A stretch of DNA of 24,806 nucleotides from a virus. Position numbers and translations under genes: made by a program. The DNA lies in IMG/VR virus record IMGVR_UViG_3300043436_002567, positions 1 through 24,806 of that record; one strand, 5' to 3'. Positions within the stretch are counted from its first letter, which is position 1; every line of letters starts with the position of its first letter. Shown piece by piece: positions 21,694 to 22,691 of this stretch. The notes beneath the pieces are model-generated. The model made no database searches and had not been told where the DNA came from. It worked only from the letters and a program-made list of their open reading frames with translations.

Positions 21694-21802
21694 TACTCTT
21701 ACAAGGTTGCAACCCTTGGAGGTGGTCATCCCATTAAGTGATTGCGTTAAAAGACAGACGACGTCTAATAGCATCCTATCCTTACCTGCTTGGATAAGAG
21801 TA
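21694..21802 (-). ncRNA. Folded RNA domain 3' of twister A
   Basis: TACTCTTA and TAAGAGTA (8 bp) close a 109-nt domain directly after the ribozyme. Its outer strand shares base 21802 with ribozyme stem P1, and that stem is short. Inside are smaller hairpins (TATCC/GGATA, AGAC/GTCT, GGTTGCAACC). An open frame crossing this area is not credible as a gene. Confidence 0.5.
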
Positions 21803-21867
21803 TTCCCCTCTGCATTCAGTACGCGTATACTGTCAGCCCTTGGGAAGCTGAAATGATGCATTAAAAT
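21802..21867 (-). ncRNA. Twister self-cleaving ribozyme A
   Basis: On the minus strand: short P1 (ATT/AAT), then UUAAUGC with predicted cleavage between U and A (21863/21862). P2 is UGC/GCA. The P4 hairpin CAGC-UUCCCAAGG-GCUG carries the conserved CCCAAG. An extra hairpin CAGTA/TACTG follows, and then GCAGAGGGG. T1 pairs loop CCC with GGGG; T2 pairs UC (after AAUGCA) with GG of the loop. Known twisters (rice, env22) have the same order, with GC/GC in T2. The extra hairpin is an allowed variable element. Cleavage would free the 3' end of the upstream 68-aa gene's message. Confidence 0.82.
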
Positions 21868-21932
21868 GGGAGCCTTGTGGTTATCCAAGCTCCAGCCAAC
21901 CTTTTTAGTAGGATTTTTCAAAAGAGGACTGC

Positions 21933-22139
21933 TTACTGAGCTGCTTTCCATTTAGCTTTGGCAATCTTTAACTCTTCTTTCTCAATGTCAGTTTTTGAAA
22001 ACGCAGCACGATCAATAGACACTTTGTGTTTATTAATCAACGTGTTCAACTCCTGACGAAGTGAATTAGCAGAGTTACCTGCCTCAGCTTTAGGAACCAA
22101 CTTTACAGAGACTCTCGTCGCAAAGTGTATGTTCTTCAT
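21933..22139 (-). CDS. Small hypothetical protein between two twister ribozymes, 68 aa
   Basis: MKNIHFATRVSVKLVPKAEA, then a basic helical body (LRQELNTLINKHKVSIDRA, KAKWKAAQ). Its reading frame and composition suggest a real gene, and it is the only one between the two ribozymes. A TATATA sits just upstream of the ATG, after terminator 22184-22212. Downstream of its stop a GGAGC/GCTCC hairpin (21868-21896) precedes twister A. It may bind RNA; that is inference from charge. Confidence 0.65.
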   Translation of the reverse strand: MKNIHFATRVSVKLVPKAEAGNSANSLRQELNTLINKHKVSIDRAAFSKTDIEKEELKIAKAKWKAAQ

Positions 22140-22183
22140 CGCTTATATAAAAAATTGTGTAAATAATCTTCTGACAGTAAAGA

Positions 22184-22212
22184 TAAAAAAAAGAGGTATA
22201 TTTCAACCTCTT
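22184..22212 (-). terminator. Intrinsic terminator of the twister B transcript
   Basis: AAGAGGT and ACCTCTT (7 bp) around an 8-nt loop, followed by seven T's on the minus strand. The 3' product of twister B would end here at about 195 nt. Between it and the ribozyme is a CAAAG...CTTTG-closed hairpin region. Confidence 0.85.
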
Positions 22213-22266
22213 CTCCTACTTCCTACGGTATGACAAAGCTCTATTGAGCTAATGCTTCTTTGTTTG

Positions 22267-22383
22267 TGTCCCCTCTGCACTCAATTGCAATATGACTGAC
22301 AAGATGTATACAGTCTGTACCCAATCACATGGTAGATATTACAATTGCTCACCCTTGGGAAGTGAGTTGTGGTGCATTAAACA
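22267..22383 (-). ncRNA. Twister self-cleaving ribozyme B
   Basis: The same plan as copy A with different bases in the stems: P1 TGT/ACA, UUAAUGC with cleavage at 22379/22378, P2 UGC/GCA, P4 CTCAC-UUCCCAAGG-GTGAG, and GCAGAGGGG at the 3' side. T2 reads CC/GG. The insert between P4 and the 3' core is long: a 12-bp helix (CAATTGTAATAT/ATATTGCAATTG, one G-U) topped by a GACTG/CAGTC hairpin. The changes between copies keep pairing in P1, P4 and T2, which is strong evidence for a functional fold. The 5' cleavage product is the 265-nt RNA at 22388-22652. Confidence 0.85.
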
Positions 22384-22387
22384 TAGT

Positions 22388-22652
22388 CACCAGGTGAATG
22401 AAACGTATAGAAAAAGATAAAATCAAATGCAAGATCAAAGACCTTTCTCTCAGCAAAGGCAAATGCAAGAACTCAGACCTGGTTTGAACATCCAATTATA
22501 CTTGAGTACGTAACTCAAAGTATGCAACCTGTATGTCATGTCCTAGGACCTTAAAGAGTTTTGAGAGAAAGCGGTATGGCATCAAGCCTCGTGCATATGT
22601 AGTTAATAAACTATAACTTTTATATCTTTTTAAAAATTTCATTCACCTAGTG
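22388..22652 (-). ncRNA. Structured RNA of about 265 nt closed by a long-range helix
   Basis: CAC-C-AGGTGAATGAAA (22388-22403) pairs with TTTCATTCACCT-A-GTG (22637-22652): 15 bp with one mismatch, closing 233 nt. Inside, CTTTCTCTCA (22443-22452) pairs with TGAGAGAAAG (22562-22571), 10 bp. A TTGAGT-ACGTA-ACTCAA hairpin lies within that, and the 11-nt CAAATGCAAGA occurs at 22424 and 22460. It ends 4-9 nt before the twister B cleavage site. No open frame of merit covers it. No named RNA class fits that I know. Confidence 0.6.
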
Positions 22653-22656
22653 TAAA

Positions 22657-22691
22657 GAACAAGGGAATCAGCTTGTGCCTATCCCTTGTTC
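22657..22691 (-). terminator. Hairpin after the 300-aa gene
   Basis: GAACAAGGGA and TCCCTTGTTC (10 bp) around a 15-nt loop, 16 nt past the stop codon. Only TTTAC follows, so it may terminate partially or mark the 5' boundary of the structured RNA. Confidence 0.55.

Follow-up and report, generated by a model that had tools for sequence, protein, structure and literature searches.

The question raised by positions 22,267 to 22,383 of the window (the whole 24,806-nt stretch of viral DNA analysed here) is whether the minus strand at this locus encodes a self-cleaving RNA of the twister type, as put forward in the original prediction, and how such an RNA relates to the known families. The minus strand from 22383 to 22267 (copy B) reads UAAUGC, with the predicted cut after its first U, a hairpin with the loop UUCCCAAGG, the segment GCAGAGGGG and an inserted 12-bp helix. 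The predicted ends were exact on this reading, and the twister order and spacing were borne out together with helices P1, P2 and P4. The 5′ strand of P1, UGUU (22380-22383; U22383, G, U, U22380), faces GACA (P1′; G22270-A22267) and is followed by UAA (22377-22379), which comprises the predicted cleavage site and two conserved adenines (A in 84/84 and 83/84 of the copies described below). The 5′ strand of P2, UGCAC (22372-22376), forms five pairs with GUGCA (P2′; G22280-A22276). C22371 and A22370 then lead to P4 (22348-22366), a CUCAC-UUCCCAAGG-GUGAG hairpin whose strands C22366-C22362 and G22352-G22348 enclose the loop U22361-G22353, within which CCC at 22357-22359 forms the 5′ side of the T1 pseudoknot. 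The P5 element (22282-22347) consists of the 12-bp helix C22347-U22336/A22293-G22282 and a further hairpin, so that the predicted inserted helix is real and lies at the P5 position; the single residue A22281 separates it from P2′. GAGGG (22271-22275) places G22275 at the position of the catalytic guanine of twister and provides GGG (22271-22273) as the 3′ side of T1. A second member with a short P5 (copy A; 21802-21867, minus strand, predicted cleavage between U21863 and A21862) shares with copy B the order P1 - U/AA - P2 (UGCAY) - CA.. - P4 with loop UUCCCAAGG - P5 - A - P2′ (RUGCA) - GAGGG - P1′, the slash marking the predicted cut, and its ordered motif pattern was found in 0/100 shuffled windows.

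Scanning the whole window with Rfam at E ≤ 5 returned no twister model and no family at copy A or copy B, and in a scan of 641 bp (21780-22420) at E ≤ 10 neither copy was reported by any family, the twister models included, an outcome that the original prediction had itself named as counting against it. No twister call was obtained for relatives in the family either: the variant members L213, L214, L216 and L217 were without a match, whereas four canonical type-P1 twister control loci, fetched by pattern from prokaryote genomes and run alongside them with the same tool, scored 33-60 bits, also below the RF03160 cut-off of 67.2 bits. As the canonical controls were matched and the variant members were not, the miss is due to the Rfam model and not to the tool. 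A single match of RF03160, below threshold at 21.3 bits, coincided exactly with a member of the family.

Pattern scans of IMG/VR were used to collect relatives, yielding 5 and then 51 further contigs, followed by more with relaxed T1 and P2. A covariance model, R1, was constructed from 22 pattern-found members, with copies A and B in the training set, and in the window it found these two alone, with scores of 76.2 bits for copy A and 69.3 bits for copy B against 13.3 bits for the next best match. In the collected loci R1 gave 84 cmsearch matches, 83 of them distinct, corresponding to about 80 more copies in IMG/VR phage contigs. Every record in a first set of 50 carried at least one R1 match at E ≤ 0.1; further matches within those 50 records were often 0.2-2 kb apart, and several records held tandem copies. 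Canonical twisters were scored at 15-25 bits by R1, which is weak evidence since those loci had been picked by a sharing pattern.

Covariation was assessed in 21 short members over 21 pairs, encompassing P1, P2, P4, P5 and the T1 pseudoknot. In this set 95.9% of cells were paired and two-sided changes were present at 20/21 pairs, a result reached by 0/500 shuffles, and pairing fell to 34-49% when the partner was slid by one to three columns. P2 and P4 were paired in 99-100% of cells and both covaried, P4 at all five pairs, and the base of P5 covaried at four pairs. Over the 84 copies P1 was paired in 69% of cells, compared with 49% after shuffling (maximum 56%), and all four of its pairs were formed in only 31/84 copies; pairing of P1 is weaker than that of the other helices but real. 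When T1 was left free in the search, the departures from CCC (CCA/UGG, CAC/GUG, UCC/GGA, UCA/UGA and CCU/AGG) were all compensated, and three loci from that search (L150, L152 and L156), a chance hit or broken pattern matches, were set aside. Over all 84 copies nine changed triplets were compensated and one (CCA/GGG) was not, bearing out the predicted T1 pseudoknot. P2, usually UGCAY/RUGCA, covaried at four of its five pairs when it was freed (UGUAC/GUACA, AGUAC/GUACU, AUUAC/GUAAU and AAUAC/GUAUU), so that search patterns with T1 or P2 free still gave compensated T1 and P2. The positions matching the active site are near invariant in the 84 matches (UAA; CAAG; GA, with its G in 82/84), an invariance that is partly built in, since most of these letters were fixed by the search patterns and R1 was built from pattern hits. 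The folding energy of copy B is ordinary (z -0.82, single-sequence folding), and the case for this copy rests on comparison.

The Rfam twister-P1 consensus, ccuuUAAcgCcGCC...GcCGGUCCCAAGCCCGggUAAAgGcgGAGGGaagg, agrees position by position with the variant (UAA-P2-...UCCCAAG...-P2′-GAGGG). Twister type P1 (RF03160, clan CL00120) and the variant have in common the order P1-UAA-P2-P4-(U)CCCAAG-P4′-P2′-GAGGG-P1′, the T1 pseudoknot and the cleavage and active-site letters. Thus the essential stems P1, P2 and P4 are present in type-P1 order, T1 joins L4 to L1, and the conserved L1/L4 nucleotides (UAA, CAAG, GA) are found, albeit partly imposed by the search patterns; of the features by which twisters are recognised, the match to an Rfam twister model is missing. 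However, the variant has neither the GCC in L2 nor the GCC following CAAG, which carry the T2 residues of twister (PMC5408937). Where canonical T2 joins GC in L2 to GC in L4, the variant has YC in L2 and GG in the loop, the latter closing as UU...GG instead of U...GCC, and its P2 comprises five covarying pairs compared with four in the canonical form. In place of the A-rich canonical L2 strand the variant has the P5 hairpin and one A, the hairpin lying on the 3′ side of the P2-P4 internal loop, as in twisters with a P5 stem. Among annotated twisters, P5 is reported for 1% and P3 for 78% (PMC6154101), whereas P5 was found in every copy of the variant and P3 in none.

The original prediction had described T2 as CC/GG, which does not hold: the first L2 residue (Y) covaries with the P2 purine (14 C-G and 7 U-A, with no mismatch, in the 21 short members) and therefore belongs to P2. 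As this residue pairs in P2 and the loop keeps GG, at most one T2 pair is left. A pattern with both positions free returned no variants of the T2 pair. We infer that P2 gained its fifth pair at the expense of one T2 pair, with C22371-G22354 kept as the proposed sole remaining T2 pair (C in 84/84 copies) and the length of the stack preserved. A structural study, reported in PMC5408937, suggested that the active site might be disturbed if P2 had more or fewer pairs. Because T2 as defined for twister is absent, the variant is called twister-like, and it is this large replacement of one of the two pseudoknots that causes the standard RNA databases to miss it. Covariation of the helices and T1, combined with the near-invariant active-site letters, points to the twister fold, and the element is, on these comparative grounds, a T2-reduced twister-like variant with that fold, outside the present family models.

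Two other assignments of the element itself were weighed against this evidence. Membership of copies A and B in the separate twister-sister class is very improbable: loop sequences are alike between twister and twister-sister (PMC6154101), and the P4 loop of the variant has the similarity described for twister in general, but twister-sister is described without an L1-L4 pseudoknot and as cleaving the opposite strand, whereas T1 is shown here by covariation, and the Rfam scans gave no match to any family at either copy worth taking seriously. That the hairpins are arranged fortuitously, or that the locus is a coding or DNA feature, would be in keeping with the unremarkable folding energy of copy B alone and with an ORF readable through copy A; its probability is negligible, as covariation across unrelated contigs excludes a chance arrangement and 72/77 copies are intergenic, the remaining five lying inside an ORF of at least 90 aa.

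Copies A and B are very likely cis-acting self-cleaving RNAs of the type-P1 twister fold, and copy B is probably cut between U22379 and A22378, at exactly the coordinates originally predicted. P1, the UAA at the cut, P2, P4, the loop UUCCCAAGG and T1 (CCC with the GGG of GAGGG) would together build the twister active site, with the fifth P2 pair replacing one of the two T2 pairs at the P2/T2 end, and G22275 and A22378 would occupy the places of the catalytic guanine and of the adenine after the cut. A phage mRNA would thereby be cleaved between co-directional genes, leaving an upstream product with a 2′,3′-cyclic phosphate just downstream of the structured 3′ end of the upstream gene, and a downstream product with a 5′-OH that retains the ribozyme body. 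The reduced T2 and lengthened P2, the weak P1 of many copies (all four pairs in fewer than half of them) and a G-to-A change at the catalytic guanine position in 2/84 copies would also suit a twister-derived RNA that kept its fold and lost cleavage, acting at the junctions of transcripts as a structured spacer, as a stabiliser or as a site for protein binding. We regard this as unlikely, since the cleavage-site and active-site letters stay while every helix changes, and twister cleavage can proceed without P1 (PMC5408937).

The T2-reduced twister-like variant has so far been found in viral contigs only. One exact-pattern scan of prokaryote genomes (84,980 species), covering short inserts, gave no match. 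Among cultured phages, BLAST found no match for a relative, and those for copy B were weak and partial, covering 35% of the query or less (E ≥ 0.3); R1 had no match in two phages that share the MoxR gene. The carrier contigs are uncultured, and the Bacteroidota host assumed in the original prediction is not established. No description of a twister variant with reduced T2 was found in the open-licence literature. Near-identical P5 inserts with different flanks and partly different P4 were observed in L027/L031, L014/L028, L021/L024/L056, L010/L025, L033/L040 and L007/L045, and give the impression of an insert that is mobile or selected in its own right.

Further elements were noted in the window and in the carrier contigs. 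Directly after copy A lies a motif, E1 (21802-21693, minus strand), of the form UACUCUYA-UCCAA(UU)GCAGG-variable insert-CAAGGRUUGCAACCUUG-URAGAGUA, unannotated and present in 26 instances in the collected phage contigs, with a nearly unvarying outer helix and a few compensatory changes; E1 is possibly a new structured RNA or ribozyme. Insert modules common to E1 and P5 were sought and discarded, as one pair was strong (score 20, with shuffles reaching up to 18) and the rest were at chance level. A second unannotated motif, E2, with the core UAUCCAGUAAGYURCUGGC, occurs upstream of the twister-like copy in L024, L027, L028, L045, L050, L013 and L005. The minus strand of the window also contains a tRNA-like match with long insertions (11277-11141; 29.5 bits, cut-off 29; none by ARAGORN) and encodes a spore photoproduct lyase-like protein (13925-13035), a CobT-like VWA protein (16446-14581) and a MoxR-type AAA ATPase (17894-16608), the top cultured-phage relative of which is in Bacteroides phage BS162P1 (43%).

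The genomic setting of the copies bears on their role. The nearest ORF was co-directional upstream in 62/66 and downstream in 67/67 cases. In the window, a hatchet ribozyme (RF02678; 24095-23959, minus strand, 80.7 bits, above the cut-off) is followed by a 300-aa gene, a structured segment and copy B, so that a self-cleaving class with an unrelated fold is present in the same phage as copies A and B. The relative G012 has its hatchet at 103037-102901, and the order and spacing from hatchet to twister are as in the window. Hatchet as a regular companion was rejected, being above the cut-off in only 2/51 carrier records, namely the record of the window and G012. The structured segment (22387-22652, minus strand) is closed by a 17-bp long-range helix that encloses 230 nt, ends 3 nt before P1 of copy B and is preserved in the homolog L039 with no broken pair; the folding energy of 22387-22660 is -79 kcal/mol (z -5.34). 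Elsewhere, a GOLLD RNA ends 2-3 nt before the match to the twister-like model (G042:6590-6984, G031:14355-14750 and G035:38912-38517), with GOLLD scores of 88.6-100.8 bits, under the 150-bit cut-off of that family. GOLLD adjoins a twister-like copy in two lineages; the scores of G031 and G035 are similar, and the two may represent a single lineage. No open-licence literature joining 'twister ribozyme' with GOLLD was found. The simplest role for the variant, and by inference the probable one, is that it divides phage transcripts into units and in doing so forms the 3′ ends of structured RNAs.

Engineered twister pairs yield RNA ends suited for circular ligation, and copies B and A, which flank a single 68-aa ORF, might act as a pair to release a 516-nt RNA with ends fit for ligation into a circle, an account that competes for the role and not for the fold. 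The tandem copies of several other records, 0.2-2 kb apart, fit with it; however, no RtcB was detected in 25 carrier records (search controls positive), and the relative L039/G012 (83-85% identical) has a counterpart for copy B only. A T4 Rnl1-type ligase also gave no match, though the controls of that search gave no match either. Circle release is quite improbable, and the processing of transcripts into units is preferred. More tentatively, the copies may constitute a phage-specific twister subclass with one T2 pair swapped for a fifth P2 pair, forming a transcript-processing module that includes 3′-end formation of GOLLD and travels with E1, itself maybe a ribozyme; we consider this composite possible, though doubtful as a whole.

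If the present reading is true, the second pseudoknot of twister would be largely replaceable in nature, which would put the requirements of the fold to the test. The family also shows that at least tens of ribozyme-like phage RNAs escape the covariance models now in use. The intergenic placement, beside a hatchet in this phage and at a GOLLD 3′ end in others, offers a concrete test case for the role of ribozymes in phages.
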